A stretch of 64,000 bases of DNA, taken from Tissierella sp. (lineage in GTDB: Bacteria; Bacillota; Clostridia; Tissierellales; Tissierellaceae). Under the pieces are notes generated by a model that saw only the letters and a program-made list of their open reading frames with translations, made no database searches and was not told the origin of the DNA. The first letter of the stretch is position 1. Every line of letters begins with the position of its first letter. This document shows, one piece after another, positions 21,564 to 37,968 of this stretch. The translations under genes were made by a program, and so were the position numbers. The stretch covers positions 1 through 64,000 of the forward strand of contig NZ_JARIEF010000018.1 in NCBI RefSeq assembly GCF_029266915.1. The letters run 5' to 3'.

Positions 21564-21604
21564 AAAAAATCTCTCTACCATTATGGTAAAGAGATTTTTT
21601 TTAT
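21564..21604. terminator. Bidirectional terminator between ridA and dacF-like gene
   Basis: AAAAAATCTCT-CTACCATTATGGTA-AGAGATTTTTTT. Confidence 0.8.
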
Positions 21605-22878
21605 TTATATCTTGAATAATGTCGTCTGTTTTTTCTTTTGCCGAAAACAAACATGCCTCTGATAAGGATTAAGAATACTATTATAAGACCTATCAGTAAA
21701 TACCATTTATCTATTAAAAATTCCAGTAGTTTATTTTTAGGAACCGATTTTATTTCTATTGTAGAGACAATATCTTCTTTTGCAATAAGATTGCCGTCTA
21801 AATAATATTCTGCACTTCCTAAAACATCCCCTTCAGCAATGGGGGGACTTATTTTATCTTTAAATTTCAAATTCTTTTTTATACGGTCGATTTCATCTGT
21901 TTTTAAAAGATAATAAACATCTTTATTTAAAACAGCAGAAGCATAAGGAAGGGACCCGTCTTCTATATTTATATTTTCTATAAATTCGTTGGAATGACCT
22001 AAGAAAGTAGGGTGAAAGTTATCAAATCCATAATCAAGAAGTTTTACAGTGTCAGCATAAACCTGTTTGCCTTGTGATTTAAGAACTATGGCTATCATAT
22101 TTTTGCCATCTCTTTGGGCATAACTTACTAAACAATGTTTAGCCTCAGGAGTAGTTCCGGTTTTTATACCCTTAATACCTTCGTACTTAATTGGAACAAT
22201 CTTACCATCTAGATCCATGTTTTCTCTTCCATACAAAAATTTGTTTGTAGTATGTAAAAGTCTAGCTTCCTTTTTCTTGTTTGTAGGAGGAATAGTATAT
22301 TCTCTTTTAGAAACAAAGGATCTGAAAACTTCATTTTCCATAGCATATCTCGATATTAAATATAAATCTGATGCAGTAGTGTAATGATTATCATCATGTA
22401 ATCCATTTGGATTGACAAAATTAGTATTCATAGCTCCAAGTTCCTTGGCCTTTGCATTCATAAGCCCAACAAAGCCCTCTATAGAACCTGAAATGTGCAT
22501 CGCTATAGCATTAGCAGCATCGTTGGCCGAAGCTACTATAAGACCGTTTAAGAGGTCTTCAAATCTCACTTTTTCCTTGTAGTCTAGAGCTATATGACTT
22601 CCCTCTGTCAATTTTATTGCATCATCATCCATTTCTACAATATCATTCATCTTTCCAAGTTCAATAGCAAGAATTGCAGTCATAATTTTAGTAGTACTTG
22701 CAGGATAAAATCGTTCATTAGAATTTTTTTCATAGAGGATTCTATTTGAATCATAATCCATAAGCAAGATGCCCTCTCCAACTAATTTTAAATCATCGCC
22801 ATCTGCAAAACTAACAGGAACTATAAGCAAACTAAATATCATAAAAAACAAAAAATATTTCATAGCAAATTTCTTCAT
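21601..22878 (-). CDS. dacF: D-alanyl-D-alanine carboxypeptidase (PBP5/DacF family)
   Basis: YPASTTKIMTAI (SxxK), SANDAANAIA (SxN), KTGTT; signal peptide and C-terminal TM. Confidence 0.92.
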   Translation of the reverse strand: MKKFAMKYFLFFMIFSLLIVPVSFADGDDLKLVGEGILLMDYDSNRILYEKNSNERFYPASTTKIMTAILAIELGKMNDIVEMDDDAIKLTEGSHIALDYKEKVRFEDLLNGLIVASANDAANAIAMHISGSIEGFVGLMNAKAKELGAMNTNFVNPNGLHDDNHYTTASDLYLISRYAMENEVFRSFVSKREYTIPPTNKKKEARLLHTTNKFLYGRENMDLDGKIVPIKYEGIKGIKTGTTPEAKHCLVSYAQRDGKNMIAIVLKSQGKQVYADTVKLLDYGFDNFHPTFLGHSNEFIENINIEDGSLPYASAVLNKDVYYLLKTDEIDRIKKNLKFKDKISPPIAEGDVLGSAEYYLDGNLIAKEDIVSTIEIKSVPKNKLLEFLIDKWYLLIGLIIVFLILIRGMFVFGKRKNRRHYSRYK

Positions 22879-23023
22879 TATTTCACCTTCCTTTTATAAT
22901 GATTTCATTATATCAAAGAAAGATGAATAAAATAAGACTTTATTTAATATTTTTAAAGGAAAATCGAAAACAATGTAGAACTATTAGTAAAGAAGTTAAA
23001 ATTATATAAGGAGATTGATAAAA

Positions 23024-23740
23024 ATGAAGTCTTACTTTACAAAAAAGGAACAAATCGTTATACTTATAGTTGTTGGTATTATAGTATCTATAGTGGGATA
23101 TAAGTTTTTTTTCAGTAAAATTTTAGCAGATAAGAGGATTAAAAACGACATAGTTATAAATGCTGACAAGCTAGATAATAAAAATATAGCGGAAGATGAT
23201 AAAGATGTTGAAGTAAATCAGGAAAAAGAAAATGCAGAGCAAATACATATCGCTCAAATCCCGCAAGAAAATATAATAGTTCATATAAGTGGTCAGGTTA
23301 AAAACCCCGGAATAGTAGAACTTGAAAATGGTCAAAGACTTATAGATGCTGTAGAGTTCTTGGGAGGACTCACAGACCAAGCGGACGGTGATAGGATAAA
23401 TTTAGCTAAAAAACTTCAAGATGAAGAAAAAATATATATTCCTAAAATAGGTGAAGAACTAAGTCCAGAGCTTGCATTAATTCAAACTCCAACTACTAGC
23501 GATCAAGTGCAAACATTTGCAAGTAAAGATAGTGGAGCAGATGTTTCTGGAAAATTAGATATAAATACATGCAGTAAAGATTTATTAAACACACTACCGG
23601 GTATAGGAGAAGTACTTTCAAATAGAATTATAGAATATAGAGAAACTAATCTATTTAAGACTATAGAGGATATTATGAATGTATCTGGCATAGGAGCTAA
23701 AAAGTTTGAAGGAATAAAAGAACTTATAATAGTAAAGTGA
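23024..23740 (+). CDS. comEA: ComEA family protein (SLBB + helix-hairpin-helix DNA-binding)
   Basis: N-terminal TM; VHISGQVKNPGIVELENGQRLIDAVE; LDINTCSKDLLNTLPGIGEVLSNRIIEYR. Confidence 0.92.
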   Translation: MKSYFTKKEQIVILIVVGIIVSIVGYKFFFSKILADKRIKNDIVINADKLDNKNIAEDDKDVEVNQEKENAEQIHIAQIPQENIIVHISGQVKNPGIVELENGQRLIDAVEFLGGLTDQADGDRINLAKKLQDEEKIYIPKIGEELSPELALIQTPTTSDQVQTFASKDSGADVSGKLDINTCSKDLLNTLPGIGEVLSNRIIEYRETNLFKTIEDIMNVSGIGAKKFEGIKELIIVK

Positions 23741-23751
23741 GGTAATGATAA

Positions 23752-24786
23752 ATGTCAAAAAGACTTACACAACTTACAAAAACTTCAGGATGAGGTGGTA
23801 AAATCGGTCCTGATATATTGGCGCAAGTTTTGCGTCACTTACCTAAAACAGTAGATGAAAATTTAATAGTAGGGCTTGATACAGCAGATGATGCAGCAGT
23901 ATACAAGATAAATGATGATTTAGCTATAATTCAGACCTTGGACTTTTTCACCCCCATGGTAGATGACCCATTTGTATTTGGACAGATTGCAGCTGCTAAC
24001 TCTTTAAGTGATATCTATGCTATGGGAGGAGAGCCAACTCTTTGTATGAATATTGTTTGCTTTCCAGATTGCTTAAAGCCCGAAGTATTGGCAGAGATAC
24101 TTAAAGGAGGGCTAGATAAAGTAAAAGAAGCTGGAGCAATACTTGTAGGAGGACATTCTGTAACAGATGAAGAACCAAAATATGGTCTTTCTATTACCGG
24201 GTTTGTTCATCCGGATAAGGTTCTTACAAACAGCGGAGCTAAAGCTGGAGATGTTCTTATAATTACAAAACCCCTTGGTATTGGAATTATAAATACTGCA
24301 ATAAAAGGTGATTTAGCAGATAAGGAAACTTATGATGAGGCAGTTGAAGTTATGACAACTTTAAATAAATTTGGAAAATTAGCAGTAGATGGACTCTTTG
24401 GAGTTAGTAGCGTAACAGATATTACTGGATTTGGACTGCTAGGACATGCTCTAGAGATGGCTGAAGGAAGCGATGTAACTATAAACTTAAACCATAAACA
24501 AGTTCCGCTAATTAAAAATGCAATAGAGTATGCTAGTATGGGCCTTGTTCCGGCTGGAACTTATGCTAATAAGACTCATATAGGAGATAAAGTTTCTTTT
24601 AAAGAATCTATAAAAGAGTCAATGAAAGATGTACTCTACGATCCTCAAACATCGGGAGGTCTTCTTATATCAGTTAGTCAAGAAGATTCAAAAACAGTGC
24701 TTGAAAGACTTAAAGATTCTAAACTTCCCTTTGCCTTAATAGGAGAGGTAGTAGAACGAGAAAAATATTTTATAAATGTGAAATAA
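23752..24786 (+). CDS. selD: Selenide, water dikinase, selenoprotein form (Sec encoded by UGA at 23791-23793)
   Basis: ATG 23752 reads in frame [32 protein letters not shown] into the 23818..24786 ORF; Sec aligns with the catalytic Cys of SelD; behind a GGTAATG-type leader after comEA. Confidence 0.93.
23819..23837 (+). promoter_or_regulatory. Putative bacterial SECIS hairpin for selD
   Basis: TGGCGCAA GTT TTGCGTCA: 8-bp stem (one G.U), 3-nt loop starting with G, about 33 nt 3' of UGA. Confidence 0.75.
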
Positions 24787-24806: not shown

Positions 24807-26228
24807 ATAAATACAAAACTTTTTAAAGCTATTCCAAAAGTAGATGAAATATTAGAAAAAGAAATAATAAAAGAACTCCTGGCGATGATACCTAGGGCGA
24901 CAGTTATAGATACTATAAGAGAGGAATTAGATAGTATTAGAAACAAGATAAAGAGCGGAGAAATGGATGAAGAGATTTTTAAAGAATATATAGATACTCT
25001 AGGACAGAGGATCTATGATATATCTACTGATAAGAACTCATATAATCTTAAAAGAGTTATAAATGCTACCGGAATTGTACTTCATACAAATCTAGGAAGA
25101 TCTCTTTTAAATGAAGAAGTATTGGAAAATATAAGAAATACATCCATAAACTATTCTAATCTAGAATACGATATAGATTCTGGAAGCCGTGGATCAAGAT
25201 ATTCTCACATAGAAGATATAGTCCAGAAGATAACGGGAGCGGAGAGCTGCTTGATAGTAAACAACAATGCTGCAGCAGTCCTTCTTGTTTTAAGTACTAT
25301 GGCAAAGGATAAAGAAGTAATAGTTTCTAGAGGAGAGCTTATAGAGATAGGAGGCTCCTTTAGAATTCCTGATGTTATGGAACAAAGTGGAGCAAAACTT
25401 GTAGATGTAGGTGCTACAAATAAAACCCACTTAGATGACTATGAAAGAGCTATAGGTGAAGACACCGCAGCTCTTTTAAAGGTTCATACTTCTAATTATC
25501 GGATAATGGGCTTTACTTCAGATGTAGACTCAGCACAATTATATGAGCTTAAAGAAAGATATAATATTCCTTTAATAGAAGATTTAGGTAGCGGAGTCCT
25601 TATAGATCTTGAAAAATATGGTATGGAACATGAACCAACTGTACAGGAATCTGTTAAAAAGGGTATAGATATAGTTACCTTCAGCGGAGATAAACTGCTT
25701 GGAGGACCGCAGGTAGGGATTATTGTAGGTAAAAAAGAGTATATAGATAAGATGAAGAAGAACCCGCTTACCAGAGCCTTTAGAGTGGATAAGTTAGTAA
25801 TATCAGCGCTTGAAACTATCTTAAGCTATTATATAGATGAAGGAGACGCAGTTAAAAAAATCCCAACTCTTAGAATGCTAACTATTCCAATAGAGGAGTT
25901 GGATGAAAAAGCTATAAACTTAAAAAAAGTTTTATCACTTTTAGAAGAAGCTAAAGATTTGAACATAGATATAGCAGATAGTGAGTCAGAAGTAGGGGGA
26001 GGATCTCTTCCGCTTGTAAAACTTCCAACTAAAACGATAACTATAAATTCAGACTTGTTTAGCACCTCAAAAATGGAAGAGACACTCAGAAAATCCGATG
26101 TTCCGGTTATAACTCGTGTATATCGAGACAAACTTTACTTTGACCTGAGAACTATAAGAGACGATGAGTTTGAAATATTAGGGCAAGCTATAAAAGAAAT
26201 GTGCAGCACTCTTAAGGAGAGTATATAG
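24807..26228 (+). CDS. selA: L-seryl-tRNA(Sec) selenium transferase; apparent AUA start (ORF track starts internally at 24885)
   Basis: PLP-fold GDKLLGGPQVGIIVGK; conserved N-terminus (I/M)NTKLFKAIPKVDEILEKEIIKELLAMIPRATVIDTIREEL reads in frame upstream of 24885; SD ATAGGAAGTGAT 7 nt before ATA. Confidence 0.9.
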   Translation: MNTKLFKAIPKVDEILEKEIIKELLAMIPRATVIDTIREELDSIRNKIKSGEMDEEIFKEYIDTLGQRIYDISTDKNSYNLKRVINATGIVLHTNLGRSLLNEEVLENIRNTSINYSNLEYDIDSGSRGSRYSHIEDIVQKITGAESCLIVNNNAAAVLLVLSTMAKDKEVIVSRGELIEIGGSFRIPDVMEQSGAKLVDVGATNKTHLDDYERAIGEDTAALLKVHTSNYRIMGFTSDVDSAQLYELKERYNIPLIEDLGSGVLIDLEKYGMEHEPTVQESVKKGIDIVTFSGDKLLGGPQVGIIVGKKEYIDKMKKNPLTRAFRVDKLVISALETILSYYIDEGDAVKKIPTLRMLTIPIEELDEKAINLKKVLSLLEEAKDLNIDIADSESEVGGGSLPLVKLPTKTITINSDLFSTSKMEETLRKSDVPVITRVYRDKLYFDLRTIRDDEFEILGQAIKEMCSTLKESI

Positions 26229-28139
26229 ATGAAACATATAATTATAGGAACAGCAGGTCATATTGACCATGGAAAGACAACGCTTATAAGAGCGATAACA
26301 GGCAGAAATACTGACAGGCTTAAAGAAGAACAAAAAAGAGGTATATCCATAGAACTTGGATTTACCTATTTTGATTTGCCCAATGGAGAAAGAGCAGGGA
26401 TTATAGATGTTCCGGGCCATGAAAAATTTATAAAAAACATGCTAGCAGGAGTAATAGGAATAGATATAGTAATGTTAGTTGTAGCTGCTGATGAAGGAGT
26501 TATGCCCCAAACTCTGGAGCATCTTTCTATATTGGATCTTCTTGGAATTAAAAAAGGTTTTGTTGTTATAACTAAGACTGATTTAGTTGACGAGGACTGG
26601 TTGGAGCTTGTAGAAGAAGAGATAAGAGAAGAAGTAAAAGGAACATTTCTTGAAGACTCTGCATTTATTAAAGTATCTTCAACAAAAGGTGACGGCATAA
26701 AAGATGTAATAGAAAAAGTGATGGAGTATTCATCTCAGCTTGAAGAAAAAGAAGATACCGATCTTGCCTATTTTCCAATAGATAGATCGTTTGTTATGCC
26801 GGGATTCGGAACAGTTGTTACAGGAACGCTACTTTCGGGTAGAATAAGTGTAGGGGATGAAATGGAAATCTTTCCTGAAGAGATTGTGGGCCGTGTGAGA
26901 ACTCTACAAGTCCATGATGAGGACCAGAATGATGCCTATGCGGGCCAGAGAGTTGCTATGAATATAGCAGGTATAAAAAAAGAAGAAGCTCCTCGTGGAA
27001 GCGTTATAGCTCCTATAGGCACACTTAAAAAAACTATGATGCTGGATGTGAAAATAAAGCTTTTAAAGCATTTAGATAGAAGTATACCAAATCGTACCAG
27101 GGTAAGGTTATATATAGGAACAAAGGAAATTCTCTGCAGACTAGTCCTGCTAGATAGAGACGAACTGCTGCCAGGGGATGAAACATTTGCCCAGCTTAGG
27201 CTTGAAGAAGAAATAGTGGCTAAGAGAAAAGATAGATTTATAATCAGGTTTTACTCACCGATGTTTACGATAGGTGGGGGCGAAATAGTTGAAACTAACC
27301 CAAGCAAGCATAAGCGATTTGATGAAAAAATTGTAAATGAACTTGAAATAAAATCAGATGGAAGTAAGGAAGAAGTTTTAGAACAGGTTATCCTGGATAA
27401 GAGTTCTGAATTTGCATCTTTAAAAGAGCTTGTATCTTATACTGCTCTAGTTGAAGATGTTTTAACCCAAAGGATAGACGAATTAATCTCACAAGATAAG
27501 GTTATAAAATTTACTCTTACAAAAGATGAATATATTATCCATCGAGAGTATTTTGAAACAATAAAAAATAATATAGAACAGGAATTAAAAGAGTTTCACC
27601 TTAAAAATTCTTTGAAAACTGGAATGTCTAAAGAAGAAATAAGAAGCAGATTTTTAAAATATGCTCCTTCAAAACTTGGAGAGGCTATAATAGATAGATT
27701 TGTAAAGATGGATTATTTAGTCCAAGATAAAGAGTTTATAAGATTGAAAGACTTTGAAATTAAACTTAATGATAATCAATTAGATTTAAAGAATAAAATA
27801 AATGCTCTAATGAAGAAAAATGCTTACAATACTCTTAAAAGAGAAGAGATGATCTCTGAATTAGATATTAAAAAAGATGAATTTGATGAAGTTTTTAATT
27901 ATCTAGTAAATATAGAAGAGATTATTAGATTAAATGAAGAAATCTATTTATCTAAAGAAGATACTGAGAATTCCTTAGAACGTGTTAAAGCGTTTATCCA
28001 AGAAGAAGGTTCTATATCTATAGCAGAATTTAGGGACCTCTTAAAGAGCAATAGAAAAGTTTCGCTACTGCTTTTAGAATACGCAGATCAAATGAAGGTA
28101 ACATTAAGGGATGAAGATAAAAGAGTGCTATATAAGTAA
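26229..28139 (+). CDS. selB: Selenocysteine-specific elongation factor SelB
   Basis: GTAGHIDHGKTTLIRAITG, DVPGHEKFIKNML; winged-helix C-terminus; follows selA. Confidence 0.97.
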   Translation: MKHIIIGTAGHIDHGKTTLIRAITGRNTDRLKEEQKRGISIELGFTYFDLPNGERAGIIDVPGHEKFIKNMLAGVIGIDIVMLVVAADEGVMPQTLEHLSILDLLGIKKGFVVITKTDLVDEDWLELVEEEIREEVKGTFLEDSAFIKVSSTKGDGIKDVIEKVMEYSSQLEEKEDTDLAYFPIDRSFVMPGFGTVVTGTLLSGRISVGDEMEIFPEEIVGRVRTLQVHDEDQNDAYAGQRVAMNIAGIKKEEAPRGSVIAPIGTLKKTMMLDVKIKLLKHLDRSIPNRTRVRLYIGTKEILCRLVLLDRDELLPGDETFAQLRLEEEIVAKRKDRFIIRFYSPMFTIGGGEIVETNPSKHKRFDEKIVNELEIKSDGSKEEVLEQVILDKSSEFASLKELVSYTALVEDVLTQRIDELISQDKVIKFTLTKDEYIIHREYFETIKNNIEQELKEFHLKNSLKTGMSKEEIRSRFLKYAPSKLGEAIIDRFVKMDYLVQDKEFIRLKDFEIKLNDNQLDLKNKINALMKKNAYNTLKREEMISELDIKKDEFDEVFNYLVNIEEIIRLNEEIYLSKEDTENSLERVKAFIQEEGSISIAEFRDLLKSNRKVSLLLLEYADQMKVTLRDEDKRVLYK

Positions 28140-28172: not shown

Positions 28173-28871
28173 ATGAAAAAATCTATACTAATTGTAGACG
28201 ATGATAAAAACTTCGTGGATAGTTTAAAATACAACTTAAGTGAACACAATTATAAACTTGATTGTATATCCAGTTGCAAGATCATGATGAAAAAGATAGA
28301 AGAGAAACAATATGATTTGATTCTATTAAATGAAGCTATAGAAGGCATAGATGGTGTAGAAATGTGCAAAGTAATACGCAAGCGATCGACTATACCTATA
28401 ATTATGTTGTCTAATAATAATGATGAAATGCCTAAAATTTTAGCTTTTGAATATGGAGCAGATGATTATATGATAAAGCCCTTTAATTTTTTAGAACTTA
28501 AAGCTAGGATAAAAACTATATTTAGAAGAATGGATTATAAAATAAATAGTGAGCCCAAACATATATTTAAAATAAACAATTTTACCATAGATTTTTTAAA
28601 AAGAAATATAAGCATAGAAGATAAAGATATAAACTTTACGGGTAAAGAGTTCGATCTTTTCTATGTACTTTCTTCTAATGCCGGAAAAGTATTCTCCCGA
28701 GAAGAACTCTTAGATGCTGTTTGGGGGTATAATCACTATGGTGATATTAGAACAGTAGATGTTCATATAAGAAGAATAAGAGAAAAGATTGAAACTGATA
28801 CAGAAGAAACACAATATATAATGACTAAGTGGGGAGAGGGATACTACTTTAATGATATTTTGATTTCTTAA
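28173..28871 (+). CDS. Orphan OmpR/PhoB-family response regulator with Asn in place of phospho-acceptor Asp
   Basis: ILIVDDDKNF...YDLILLNEAIEGIDG (N53)...ADDYMIKPF; winged-helix FTGKEFDLFYVLSSNAGKVFSREELLDAVWGY; no adjacent kinase. Confidence 0.93.
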   Translation: MKKSILIVDDDKNFVDSLKYNLSEHNYKLDCISSCKIMMKKIEEKQYDLILLNEAIEGIDGVEMCKVIRKRSTIPIIMLSNNNDEMPKILAFEYGADDYMIKPFNFLELKARIKTIFRRMDYKINSEPKHIFKINNFTIDFLKRNISIEDKDINFTGKEFDLFYVLSSNAGKVFSREELLDAVWGYNHYGDIRTVDVHIRRIREKIETDTEETQYIMTKWGEGYYFNDILIS

Positions 28872-28907: not shown

Positions 28908-28963
28908 ATGAGTCAAGCATAAATTTTGCAACTAAAATCAGTGTGAAACTACCCTTGACTCAT
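28908..28963. promoter_or_regulatory. 10-bp inverted repeat overlapping putative tRNA-Sec promoter
   Basis: ATGAGTCAAG - 36 nt - CTTGACTCAT. Confidence 0.65.
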
Positions 28964-29459: not shown

Positions 29460-30830
29460 GTGGATATTCAAGCATTTGTAGATGCAGTAAATGGTGTTGT
29501 ATGGGACAAAATATTAATATATGTTCTGATGGGCACCGGAATTTTTTATACTATTTATTTAGGATTACCGCAGTTCAGCAAGATAGGAACGGCGTTTAAG
29601 GTTACATTTGGAGGAGTTTTTTCTAAGAGGGAAAAAACTGACGATGGTGAGATGTCACCTTTCCAAGCACTTGCTACGGCAATAGCAGCTCAGGTAGGAA
29701 CAGGAAACCTTGCCGGAGTAGCTTCGGCAATAGCAGCAGGAGGACCGGGAGCAATATTTTGGATGTGGGTTAGTGCCTTCTTCGGAATGGGTACTATCTT
29801 CGCAGAGGCAGTACTAGCTCAAAAGTATAATGAAAGAATTGATGGAGAGATGACAGGGGGACCTGCTTACTACCTATCAAAAGGATTAAAAAATAAGGCA
29901 TTAGGTAAAACTTTAGCGGCAATATTTGCAGTTCTTATTATAATTGCTTTAGGATTTGTAGGAAACATGGTTCAGTCAAACTCAATAGCTGATGCAGTGC
30001 ACGCAGCTTTTGGAATAAATAAACTCATAATAGGTATTGTAGTTGCAATTTGTGCGGCACTTATTCTTATAGGTGGAGTTAAGCGTATAGCTTCATTTGC
30101 AGAACTAGTAGTACCTTTTATGGCGGCGTTATATATAATTGGTGGTATAGTAATATTAGCTAAAAATGGTGGAGCAATTCTTCCAGCATTTAAGAGTATA
30201 TTTGTAGGAGCATTTACTACACAAGCAGCAATAGGTGGTGCCGTAGGTATTACTGTTAAGCAGGCTGTAAGACTTGGTATAGCTAGAGGACTATTCTCTA
30301 ACGAAGCTGGTATGGGTTCTACTCCTCACGCTCACGCAGTAGCAAAGGTAGATCATCCGGCCCAACAAGGTATGGTTGCAATGGTTGGAGTTATTATAGA
30401 TACTTTTGTAGTTTGTACTTTTACCGCTCTTGTAAACATAGTTACAGGATCTTATCTAGAAGGTCTTAATGCAGCTGCTATGACTCAGAGAGCATTTGAA
30501 TTAGGTCTTGGCAGATTCGGAGTAGTATTTATAGCAATAAGTTTATTCTTCTTTGCATTTACAACCATAATAGGCTGGACTTTCTTTGGAGATGCAAACG
30601 TAAAATATCTATTTGGTAAAAAAGGTTCAACGATTTATAAATTAGTCGTGCTTCTATTTATAGTTCTTGGCGCTACTTTAAAAGTAGATCTTGTATGGGA
30701 CTTAGCAGATATGTTTAACGGACTTATGGTTCTTCCAAACGTTATTGGTTTATTACTGTTAGCTCCTCAGGCTAGAAACTTACTAGTAGACTATGATAAA
30801 AACTTTGTTACCAGATTAAAACCTCAATAA
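29460..30830 (+). CDS. Alanine/glycine:cation symporter family protein (AGCS), copy 1 (GTG start)
   Basis: GTGNLAGVASAIAAGGPGAIFWMW, GLFSNEAGMGSTPHAHA. Confidence 0.95.
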   Translation: MDIQAFVDAVNGVVWDKILIYVLMGTGIFYTIYLGLPQFSKIGTAFKVTFGGVFSKREKTDDGEMSPFQALATAIAAQVGTGNLAGVASAIAAGGPGAIFWMWVSAFFGMGTIFAEAVLAQKYNERIDGEMTGGPAYYLSKGLKNKALGKTLAAIFAVLIIIALGFVGNMVQSNSIADAVHAAFGINKLIIGIVVAICAALILIGGVKRIASFAELVVPFMAALYIIGGIVILAKNGGAILPAFKSIFVGAFTTQAAIGGAVGITVKQAVRLGIARGLFSNEAGMGSTPHAHAVAKVDHPAQQGMVAMVGVIIDTFVVCTFTALVNIVTGSYLEGLNAAAMTQRAFELGLGRFGVVFIAISLFFFAFTTIIGWTFFGDANVKYLFGKKGSTIYKLVVLLFIVLGATLKVDLVWDLADMFNGLMVLPNVIGLLLLAPQARNLLVDYDKNFVTRLKPQ

Positions 30831-30857
30831 ATAAAATAAAGCAAAATAAATAAATAA

Positions 30858-30899
30858 AAACAGATCAAAGAGTTTAAATTCTTTGATCTGTTTTTTTTG
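30858..30899 (+). terminator. Terminator of AGCS copy 1
   Basis: AACAGATCAAAGA GTTTAAAT TCTTTGATCTGTT + T8. Confidence 0.88.
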
Positions 30900-31182
30900 T
30901 TTAGTAAGATGCTAAGGAGATTTTATAGTAAATATAAAGTCTATGAGTTTGTAAAATAGATTGTTACAGATTAAAAGGTAAAAAATATAAGCATTAAAAT
31001 TTATAAGTTATAGAAGGCAAATATAGAGTAAATCTCAGTTGTAAAAGTCAAAATTATCAGAGAATATTTTATGAAATATGTAATATTAGGGAAAACGATT
31101 TTGTTTTTTAAAACTTAAGTGATATAGTATTAACTAGGCATTGCGAATTAAATGCCAAAAAACTTTAAGGGGGAATTAAATA

Positions 31183-32556
31183 ATGGATGTTAAAGCATTC
31201 GTAGATGCAGTAAATAGTGTCTTATGGGACAATATATTGATATATGTTCTCATGGGAGCTGGAATTTTTTATACTATTTATTTAGGATTACCGCAGTTTG
31301 GTAAAATTGGTAAAGCATTTAAGTTTACATTTGCTGGGGTTTTCACAAACAGAAAGAAAACAGCAGAAGGTGAAATGTCACCTTTCCAGGCACTTGCTAC
31401 AGCAATAGCAGCACAAGTAGGAACAGGTAACCTTGCGGGAGTAGCTTCAGCTATAGCTGCCGGAGGACCAGGAGCAATATTTTGGATGTGGGTTAGTGCC
31501 TTGTTCGGAATGGCAACTATATTTGGTGAGGCGGTACTAGCTCAAAAATATAACGAAAGAATTGACGGGGAGATGACAGGGGGACCTGCCTACTATCTTT
31601 CAAAAGGAATAAAAAACAAGACAGTAGGTAAAGTTTTAGGAGCTTCATTTGCAGTTCTTATTGTAATTGCCTTAGGATTTGTAGGAAATATGGTTCAAGC
31701 AAACTCAATAGCAGATGCAGTTAACACAGCATTTGGAATAAATAAAATTGTTATAGGAGTTGTAGTTGCAATTTGTGCAGCACTTATTCTTATAGGTGGA
31801 GTTAAGCGTATAGCTTCATTTGCAGAACTTGTAGTACCTTTTATGGCGGCATTATATATAATTGGTGGTATAGTAATACTAGCTAAAAATAGTTCAGCTA
31901 TAGGACCTGCTTTTAATAGTATATTTGTAGGAGCTTTTACTACACAAGCAGCTATAGGAGGGGCCATAGGTATAAGTGTCAAGCAGGCAGTAAGGCTTGG
32001 TATAGCTAGAGGACTATTCTCTAACGAAGCTGGTATGGGTTCTACTCCTCACGCTCATGCGGTGGCAAAGGTAGATCATCCGGCCCAGCAAGGTATGGTT
32101 GCAATGGTTGGAGTTATTATAGATACTTTTGTAGTTTGTACTTTTACAGCTCTTGTAAACATAGTTACAGGATCTTATCTAGAAGGACTCGATGCAGCTG
32201 CTATGACTCAGAGAGCATTTGAAATTGGTCTGGGTAGATTCGGAGTAGTATTTATAGCGATAAGTTTATTCTTCTTTGCATTTACAACTATAATAGGTTG
32301 GACTTTCTTTGGAGATGCAAACGTAAAATATTTATTCGGTAAAAAGGGATCAAATATTTACAAGGCAATTGTACTTGTATTTATAGTTATTGGTGCTAAC
32401 TTAGAGGTAGGACTTGTATGGGATTTAGCAGATATGTTTAACGGACTTATGGTTATTCCAAACATTATAGGTTTATTAATATTAGCTCCTCAAGTTAAAA
32501 AGATACTAATAGACTATGATACAAATTTTGTTACTAGATTAAAACCACAGCAATAA
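31183..32556 (+). CDS. Alanine/glycine:cation symporter family protein (AGCS), copy 2
   Basis: Long near-identical blocks shared with 29460..30830 product. Confidence 0.95.
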   Translation: MDVKAFVDAVNSVLWDNILIYVLMGAGIFYTIYLGLPQFGKIGKAFKFTFAGVFTNRKKTAEGEMSPFQALATAIAAQVGTGNLAGVASAIAAGGPGAIFWMWVSALFGMATIFGEAVLAQKYNERIDGEMTGGPAYYLSKGIKNKTVGKVLGASFAVLIVIALGFVGNMVQANSIADAVNTAFGINKIVIGVVVAICAALILIGGVKRIASFAELVVPFMAALYIIGGIVILAKNSSAIGPAFNSIFVGAFTTQAAIGGAIGISVKQAVRLGIARGLFSNEAGMGSTPHAHAVAKVDHPAQQGMVAMVGVIIDTFVVCTFTALVNIVTGSYLEGLDAAAMTQRAFEIGLGRFGVVFIAISLFFFAFTTIIGWTFFGDANVKYLFGKKGSNIYKAIVLVFIVIGANLEVGLVWDLADMFNGLMVIPNIIGLLILAPQVKKILIDYDTNFVTRLKPQQ

Positions 32557-35100: not shown

Positions 35101-36420
35101 TTGTTGATAGAAGATTTAAATTTAATTGAGCCAATTCAGAGAGCATTAAAGTCTGAGGGCTATACGGAGCCAACACCTATACAAGTTAAAGCAATACCAG
35201 AACTACTTAAGGGGCGTGACCTTCTTGGATGTGCTCAGACAGGTACTGGTAAGACGGCAGCTTTTGCCCTGCCTATACTTCAAGCTTTAGTAGAAGATGA
35301 TGAAAAAATAAAAGGAAAAAGAGTTACAAAAGCGCTGGTAGTTGCACCGACAAGGGAACTTGCTATTCAAATAGCAGCTAGCTTTAAGGCTTATGCAAAA
35401 AATATAGAAATAAGGACAGTACCAATCTATGGTGGTGTGTCTCAAAAACCACAAGAAAAAAGATTGGCTAAAGGTGTAGAAGTAATCGTTGCAACACCAG
35501 GAAGACTTCTTGACCTTATAAACCAAAAGATTATAAGTCTTAAGCATATAAAATACTTTGTACTAGATGAAGCTGACCTTATGCTGGATATGGGTATGTT
35601 AAAGGATGTTAAAAAAATTATAACCTATATACCTAAGGAGAAACAAACTATGTTTTTCTCAGCTACCATGCCAAGTGAAATTGAAAAACTTGCAAATCAA
35701 ATATTAAAAGATCCATTAAAAGTAGTTGTCTCACCAGTATCATCTACAGTTGATATAATAGAGCAGGAGTTTTATTATGTAGACAGAAACAATAAGACTA
35801 ACTTGCTTATACATCTTTTAAAAAATAAAGAAATAGAATCTGCTCTAGTTTTCTCAAGAACTAAGCATGGTGCCAATAAAATAGTCAAGCAATTAGAGCA
35901 AAGTGGAATAAATGCAGAAGCTATTCATGGTAACAAGTCTCAAAATGCAAGACAGCTTGCCTTAAATAACTTTAAAGCAAAAAAGACAAGAGTCTTAGTA
36001 GCAACAGACATAGCAGCTCGTGGTATTGATATAGAAGAGCTATCCCACGTAATAAACTTTGACCTTCCTGAAGTTGCTGAAACTTATGTACACAGGATTG
36101 GAAGAACGGGACGTGCAAGTCATGGTGGAACTGCTATATCTTTCTGTGCACATGCTGAAAAACCTTTGCTAATGAGTATTGAGAAGTTAACAGGTAAAAA
36201 AATTAAAGAAATTGGCGAACATCCTTATCCTTTAATGGATACAAGAGCTGAAGAAAAAAAATCAAACTCAAGGAGAGGTGGTTCTGGTCAATCAAAGGGA
36301 AGATCAGGAGATAACTTTAGACGAGATAAAAAGACTACAGACTCTAAAAAGGACGACCGAAAAGACGGAAATTCTTGGAGAAAACATAGAACCAATAAAA
36401 AGAAACAAAGTTTTAAATAA
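35101..36420 (+). CDS. DEAD-box ATP-dependent RNA helicase (RhlE-like)
   Basis: AQTGTGKTAAFALP, VLDEAD, SAT, HRIGRTGR; basic C-terminal tail. Confidence 0.94.
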   Translation: MLIEDLNLIEPIQRALKSEGYTEPTPIQVKAIPELLKGRDLLGCAQTGTGKTAAFALPILQALVEDDEKIKGKRVTKALVVAPTRELAIQIAASFKAYAKNIEIRTVPIYGGVSQKPQEKRLAKGVEVIVATPGRLLDLINQKIISLKHIKYFVLDEADLMLDMGMLKDVKKIITYIPKEKQTMFFSATMPSEIEKLANQILKDPLKVVVSPVSSTVDIIEQEFYYVDRNNKTNLLIHLLKNKEIESALVFSRTKHGANKIVKQLEQSGINAEAIHGNKSQNARQLALNNFKAKKTRVLVATDIAARGIDIEELSHVINFDLPEVAETYVHRIGRTGRASHGGTAISFCAHAEKPLLMSIEKLTGKKIKEIGEHPYPLMDTRAEEKKSNSRRGGSGQSKGRSGDNFRRDKKTTDSKKDDRKDGNSWRKHRTNKKKQSFK

Positions 36421-36426
36421 GATAAC

Positions 36427-36456
36427 TTAAACCAAGCTCTAGAGTTTGGTTTTTTT
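36427..36456 (+). terminator. Terminator after first helicase
   Basis: AAACCAAGCTCTAGAGTTTGGTTTTTTTT. Confidence 0.75.
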
Positions 36457-36522
36457 TATGCTATAATAAAAATAATGGTAAAAACTTAAATTAAGTTAAA
36501 TAGAAAAAAGGAAGTTGATAGA

Positions 36523-37968
36523 ATGAAAAGTAAAGATTTTAATGAGTACGATTTAAGCGATGAAATATTAAGAGCTATAGAACTTTTAAATTATAAAAGT
36601 CCCACACAAGTACAGCGTAAAGTTATTCCGGCGGCTCTTAAAGAAAAAGATATAGTTGTAAAGTCTCAGACAGGAAGTGGTAAAACTGCATCTTTTGCAA
36701 TTCCGGTAAGTGAGATGATAGATTGGGAAGAAAACAAACCCCAGGCTTTAGTTCTTACGCCTACCAGAGAACTTGCTATGCAAGTTGGAGAAGATTTTTT
36801 TAATATAGGAAGATTTAAAAGACTGAAGGTTGTTCCAGTTTATGGAAGGGCGCCCTTTCGTAAACAAACGCAGGTACTAAAGCAAAAGACTCATGTAGTA
36901 GTTGGAACTCCAGGAAGGGTTATAGATCATATTGAAAGGGAAACACTTGACGTTTCCATGATAAAATATCTCATAATAGACGAAGCTGATGAAATGTTTA
37001 ATATGGGATTTTTAGAACAAATTGAAACTGTTATAAGTGCGCTACCAAAAGAAAGGATGACTATGTTATTTTCGGCAACACTTCCAAGTGATATAGAAAA
37101 CCTATGTCAGAGATATATGAATAAGCCTGAATATATAGAAATAGAAAATGAAGATGTGACAGTTGAGAAAATAGACCAATGGGCCTACCTGGTAGAAGAG
37201 AGAGAAAAGATGGAGCTCTTAAAAGATTTAACAGTTGTTGAGAGTCCTGATAGTTGTATAATCTTTGCCAATACTCGTGAAAAAGTTGATCAAATATATG
37301 ATGAGCTTGAAGATAAAGACTATACTTGTGATAAAATCCACGGCGGAATGGAACAAGAAAGCAGAACAAGTGTCATGGAGGACTTCAGAGCTGGATACTT
37401 TAGGTATCTTGTAGCAACAGATGTTGCAGCCAGAGGAATAGATATAGATGGTATAAGTCATATTATTAACTATGACGTGCCGCTGGAGAGAGAATCTTAT
37501 GTTCATAGAATAGGCAGAACTGGACGAGTTGGTAAAAAAGGTAAGGCTATAAGTTTTATAAGTAAAAGAGATGAAAGGCTGGTAAGGGAAATTGAAGCAT
37601 ATATTGAAAAAGAAATCTTGGTAAGAGAAAGACCCCAAGATCAGCTAGTAGATAGCTTAAGAGAAGAATTTGAAGATAAAAAGAGAGAAAGACCAGAGCT
37701 AAAAGAACTTAAGGGTGAGGAGTTAAGCAAGGATATAGTGAAAATACACATAAATGCAGGCCGTAAAACCAAGATGAGACCAGTTGACATTGTTGGAACT
37801 CTCTGCAATCTCCCCGGCATGACAGCCGATGATATAGGTATAATAAATATTATGGATATATCAACTTTTGTAGAAATTTTAAATGGTAAGGGTGAGATGG
37901 TCCTGGAACAACTTCAAACTACAACTATAAAAGGAAGACTTAGAAATGTCAATCTAGCCAATGAATAA
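36523..37968 (+). CDS. DEAD-box RNA helicase with DbpA-like RNA-binding C-terminal domain
   Basis: SQTGSGKTASFAIP, IDEAD, SAT, HRIGRTGR; C-terminal INAGRKTKMRPVDIVGTLCNLPGMTADDIGIINIMDISTFVEI. Confidence 0.94.
   Translation: MKSKDFNEYDLSDEILRAIELLNYKSPTQVQRKVIPAALKEKDIVVKSQTGSGKTASFAIPVSEMIDWEENKPQALVLTPTRELAMQVGEDFFNIGRFKRLKVVPVYGRAPFRKQTQVLKQKTHVVVGTPGRVIDHIERETLDVSMIKYLIIDEADEMFNMGFLEQIETVISALPKERMTMLFSATLPSDIENLCQRYMNKPEYIEIENEDVTVEKIDQWAYLVEEREKMELLKDLTVVESPDSCIIFANTREKVDQIYDELEDKDYTCDKIHGGMEQESRTSVMEDFRAGYFRYLVATDVAARGIDIDGISHIINYDVPLERESYVHRIGRTGRVGKKGKAISFISKRDERLVREIEAYIEKEILVRERPQDQLVDSLREEFEDKKRERPELKELKGEELSKDIVKIHINAGRKTKMRPVDIVGTLCNLPGMTADDIGIINIMDISTFVEILNGKGEMVLEQLQTTTIKGRLRNVNLANE

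Follow-up and report, generated by a model that had tools for sequence, protein, structure and literature searches.

Response regulators (RRs) that lack at least one of the conserved receiver residues (the acidic pair DD, the phospho-acceptor D, T and K) are classed as atypical, and a recognizable receiver without the acceptor D is an aspartate-less pseudo-receiver; how pseudo-receivers are activated in bacteria was called a mystery in a 2025 review (PMC12632262). Asn accounts for 16% of the acceptor substitutions in pseudo-receivers (PMC4395418). HP1043 (HsrA) and ChxR have degenerate receivers, form α4–β5–α5 dimers and bind DNA without phosphorylation (PMC3960148). CosR carries Asp51 where the adjacent kinase CosS exists and Asn or Ser in species without CosS (PMC3938529), and Campylobacter CosR/CosS is the direct and nearest precedent for the kinase-less RR described here. 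A search of a library of open-access papers found no described RR in sel loci.

The 64-kb stretch of DNA analysed here (the window) belongs to a draft genome that is 88.9% complete with 6.8% contamination. An ORF on its forward strand (28173–28871, 232 residues) matches Response_reg (8.9e-23) and Trans_reg_C (3.4e-27), and this succession of a receiver and a winged-helix domain places the product in the OmpR/PhoB family. The receiver (residues about 3–118; 28179–28526) reads ILIVDDD...YDLILLNEAIEGIDG...IIMLSNNND...DDYMIKPF, with Asp9, Asp10 and Lys102 present, Ser80 at the Thr position and Asn at the phospho-acceptor position 53. The dimer-face residues, which we take to be equivalent to those of ArcA, are all kept (K88, D97, D98, E108, R112 and R119, the last just beyond the receiver stretch). 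The DNA-binding domain (28623–28850) has the recognition helix RTVDVHIRRIREKI, which differs from that of the kinase-bearing orthologs by a single L to I change. The predicted fold is that of a normal two-domain RR (mean pLDDT 81), and MtrA (2gwr) was its top match among solved structures. By virtue of Asn53 the protein is an atypical RR with an aspartate-less pseudo-receiver (PMC12632262). A motif scan of all six frames found no histidine kinase in the 64 kb. The earlier note on this DNA had reported the Asn at the acceptor of an intact OmpR-family regulator, the retained acidic pocket residues and Lys, the intact winged-helix domain, the lack of a nearby kinase and the position between selB and the tRNA-Sec gene; each of these observations is borne out by the domain matches, the receiver reading, the motif scan, and the ORF and tRNA calls with selD, selA and selB upstream.

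The RR lies 33 bp past selB (26229–28139) and about 140 bp ahead of selC, the tRNA-Sec gene, which was called by both ARAGORN and Rfam (29013–29109/29105). Upstream, and like the rest of the locus on the forward strand, are selA (24885–26228), selD (23752–24786) and a comEA-like gene (SLBB and helix–hairpin–helix; 23015–23740), which is the conserved upstream neighbor of the RR throughout the class. SelD itself appears to be a selenoprotein: reading the UGA at 23791–23793 as Sec extends its N-terminus, and the plain ORF call begins too late, at 23818. The tRNA gene has its own σA-like promoter upstream (TTGACT at 28955). A perfect 10 bp inverted repeat (ATGAGTCAAG and CTTGACTCAT, arms 36 bp apart; 28908–28963) overlaps the −35 box of selC with its second arm; it was not seen in the spacer of the congener G001, where another inverted repeat sits. 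Two tandem AgcS-type amino-acid carriers of 456 and 457 residues (29460–32556) and a tandem pair of DEAD-box RNA helicase genes (35101–37968) are found downstream of selC. Divergent from comEA is a D-alanyl-D-alanine carboxypeptidase gene (21601–22878). Since many relatives have a minus-strand ORF of similar size at this position beside comEA, the intergenic region between the two genes is a candidate target of the regulator.

A candidate σH-type promoter (AGGA-N17-GAAC; 22957–22981, forward strand) precedes comEA. It was compared with the σH-type consensus AGGA-N17/18-GAAT reported for an acetogen in PMC12456013, where its similarity to the B. subtilis and C. difficile sequences is noted. Of 33 regions, 14 carry this consensus ahead of comEA (0.4 in shuffled sequence), and 10 of 22 selB–RR gaps of at least 40 bp carry the relaxed form AGGA-N17/18-GAA (0.9 expected); the element is a lead only, because it was first noticed in these sequences and then checked against the consensus, and because the genomes are related. 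No WalR-type or MtrA-type operators were recognized by eye in the selB–RR gap, only the σH-like element. In family f1 this gap is about 30 bp or less, so that the RR seems to depend on an upstream promoter.

Orthologs with 48–58% identity to the window RR occur in nearly all of the 60 genomes searched and directly follow selB in 53, the window's genome counted; these 53 take in one genome in which the RR is cut by the contig end (G022) and two in which selB is broken (G025 and G054). The order comEA–selD–selA–selB–RR recurs across the searched genomes, often with tRNA-Sec next, and this adjacency together with the conserved reading frame indicates that the arrangement is not due to chance. One further record, JAAYNG010000087.1 (Tissierellia bacterium), combines the same gene order with an acceptor that is also Asn. 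G026 (L075, G026:C100) has, next to a second tRNA-Sec gene, an additional and divergent copy of the RR whose acceptor is Glu.

Outside families f1, f2, f6 and f19 of the order, a histidine kinase is encoded downstream of the RR, usually together with a GerMN lipoprotein (Pfam Germane, PF10646). The kinase is present at all 24 kinase-type loci of the order and at 65 of 68 loci sampled from the class; of the remaining three, one ends at a contig edge and two show no kinase nearby. DD, D, T and K are all kept in these 92 kinase-type RRs (24/24 in the order and 68/68 in the class sample). At the 68 sampled class loci the RR–kinase pair adjoins comEA in 40 cases and selB in two, leaving 66 without an adjacent selB. 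The kinase-bearing RR scores best against the YycF/WalR, RpaB and MtrA models and its kinase against WalK. Two genomes, G008 and G030, have their best RR match at another locus, where the gene sizes suggest walRK–yycHI.

In families f1, f2 and f6 and in the record JAAYNG010000087.1 the kinase is absent, and the five-residue pocket is complete in none of the 31 RRs of this set, which comes mainly from the window's family. The acceptor is Glu in 16, Asp in nine, Asn in three, Gly in two and unread in one; the second acid is kept in only three, Lys102 always and Ser/Thr80 mostly. Family f19 has no adjacent kinase yet retains an intact pocket in both of its RRs, which would fit a more recent kinase loss. 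A tree of SelD, SelA and SelB groups f1 with f6 in a single clade; on this tree the kinase must have changed three times, with at least two of the changes required by well supported branches. All six dimer-face residues are kept in 24 of the 31 kinase-less RRs, the window's included. Within the kinase-less set, receivers share on average 56% and DNA-binding domains 69% pairwise identity, and the corresponding means in the kinase-bearing set of the order are 83% and 85%; as divergence times differ between the sets, only the contrast between domains is meaningful. For close kinase-less pairs, dN/dS is 0.03–0.18 in the receiver and 0.005–0.06 in the DNA-binding domain. This purifying selection in near relatives and the intact frame led us to reject a pseudogene in the window. 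Kinase loss as a by-product of lost sporulation was also rejected, since many kinase-less genomes have Spo0A and some kinase-bearing ones lack it. The window's genome (G000), the assembly of which is only 89% complete, gave no Spo0A_C match, and the congener G001 has one.

The best explanation as a whole, to which we assign a probability of about 75%, is kinase loss and pocket decay in an RR that was retained as a phosphorylation-independent regulator. The RR would descend from a canonical clostridial two-component system (RR, WalK/PhoR-like kinase and usually a GerMN lipoprotein) downstream of comEA; in the window's order the stretch with comEA and the RR also holds selDAB and usually selC. 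Kinase and lipoprotein were lost before the window's family and its sister family diverged, and independently in one or two further lineages; the pocket of the retained RR then decayed, with the acceptor Asp replaced by Glu, Asn or Gly and the second metal ligand lost. Such an RR may dimerize without phosphorylation through the retained α4–β5–α5 face, may bind the ancestral DNA sites, and may be controlled by its amount rather than by a kinase, possibly via the σH-type promoter of a comEA–selDAB–RR unit. The window RR probably acts by binding DNA independently of phosphorylation. As for its targets, kinship to MtrA/WalR-type regulators makes envelope genes, by analogy only, a more plausible guess than selenium genes. 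The earlier note had envisaged a phosphorylation-independent regulator dedicated to selenocysteine. The first half of this interpretation stands by inference, from the missing acceptor and adjacent kinase and the clade-wide loss of the pocket, together with a dimer face and a DNA-binding domain that the clade has mostly kept; the second half is not supported.

That the RR is dedicated to regulating selenocysteine incorporation or Sec-linked metabolism, perhaps as a role newly gained in a kinase-less family in which it became tightly joined to selB, seems to us quite improbable. Such a role would agree with the start of the RR within about 30 bp of selB in the window's family, from which the two are probably co-expressed, and with the presence of both RR and selB in 25 of the 28 genomes of that family. 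Against it, the RR and the sel genes are not consistently retained together. The congener G001 keeps selDAB (79–84% identical) and tRNA-Sec beside mere fragments of the RR, of which the start region, the GADDY-to-FRRM region and the C-terminus are recognizable in a selB–selC spacer of about 200 bp, and G055 and G047 have sel genes without the RR; G003, from the window's own family (only 87% complete, but with comEA and RR contiguous), and G058 of f19 have comEA–RR without sel genes. As each has been lost without the other, their adjacency is not a functional requirement either way. In most of the class, moreover, the canonical RR has comEA but no sel genes as its neighbor, which also argues against the dedicated role. 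The sel genes thus form a cassette that can be removed from the stretch between comEA and the RR, and either insertion or repeated loss may have produced this arrangement. The recognition helix is shared with the kinase-bearing orthologs, so that the DNA targets of the RR are probably older than its linkage to sel genes. The earlier note had named relatives with Asp53 plus a linked kinase as evidence against its proposal, and such relatives occur at the 24 kinase-bearing loci of the order as well as in the class sample. Capture of the kinase-less RR by the sel operon in the window's family, so that the expression of certain Sec-dependent genes would follow the level of selDAB transcript, with subsequent loss in G001 and reversion in G003, is in our view the least probable reading of all. 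The locus also cautions that a gene can stay next to sel genes in about 50 genomes without necessarily sharing a function with them.

Phosphorylation by another kinase is possible for some members, because nine kinase-less RRs have Asp at position 53 and the pocket of f19 is whole, and the retention of Lys102 and, mostly, Ser/Thr80 is compatible with it. We nevertheless consider it unlikely that an unlinked kinase or acetyl phosphate still acts on the acceptor-keeping relatives and that Asn53 in the window is a lineage-specific constitutive state: the same nine RRs have S, G, N or K in place of the second metal-binding acid, Glu occupies the acceptor position in most of the family, and the N51D reversion in Campylobacter still gave no phosphorylation by a related kinase (PMC3938529). 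Very unlikely, too, is a receiver that, as in RitR or JadR1, has come to sense some other signal, either a ligand or the redox state via cysteines. In favor of this, RitR of Streptococcus pneumoniae is likewise an OmpR-type regulator with Asn53 at the acceptor (PMC4395418), and the title of 5u8m assigns it to a family of redox sensors in streptococci. All members of the kinase-less set have Cys65, to which the window RR adds Cys31 and Cys35. Among the other kinase-less members, however, Cys31 is absent and Cys35 rare. RitR differs in its cysteine C128 (titles of 5u8k and 5vfa), for which no counterpart is shown here. Cys65 is equally conserved in the kinase-bearing orthologs of the order and hence is not a new sensor, which speaks against a cysteine redox switch peculiar to the kinase-less clade.

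What gives the finding its value is that kinase loss and pocket decay form a graded series. The ortholog sets of the order comprise kinase-bearing RRs with an intact pocket, kinase-less RRs with an intact pocket (f19), partially decayed pockets, acceptors replaced by Glu, Asn or Gly, and one decayed gene, and the recognition helix is the same in nearly all members; with so matched a series, the route from kinase-controlled to kinase-free regulation is directly testable. The kinase-bearing form resembles MtrA–MtrB–LpqB and WalR–WalK in its model scores and its GerMN lipoprotein, LpqB being a lipoprotein of the same kind, and the fold of the window RR points to MtrA as well. Unlike curated members of either group, the canonical ortholog reaches only 277.5 bits of the 340 set as the cut-off for YycF (NCBIfam NF040534) and 243.6 of the 300 for MtrA (NF040689), with 210 and 196.8 bits, respectively, for the window RR, and a WalR or MtrA identity was rejected on these scores. 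With HP1043 and ChxR the window RR shares the character of an atypical OmpR/PhoB RR; its retained dimer-face residues and DNA-binding domain suggest that it may also dimerize and bind DNA as they do, and the identity to HP1043 is only 22% over the fold match. The parallel with CosR/CosS is closer, both being OmpR-type with a conserved DNA-binding domain and a variable receiver (PMC3938529). The lineages are unrelated, and CosR is essential in C. jejuni, whereas an RR of the window type has decayed in a congener. Unlike CosR/CosS, moreover, the present case involves two to three kinase losses over four families, together with the loss of a lipoprotein partner.
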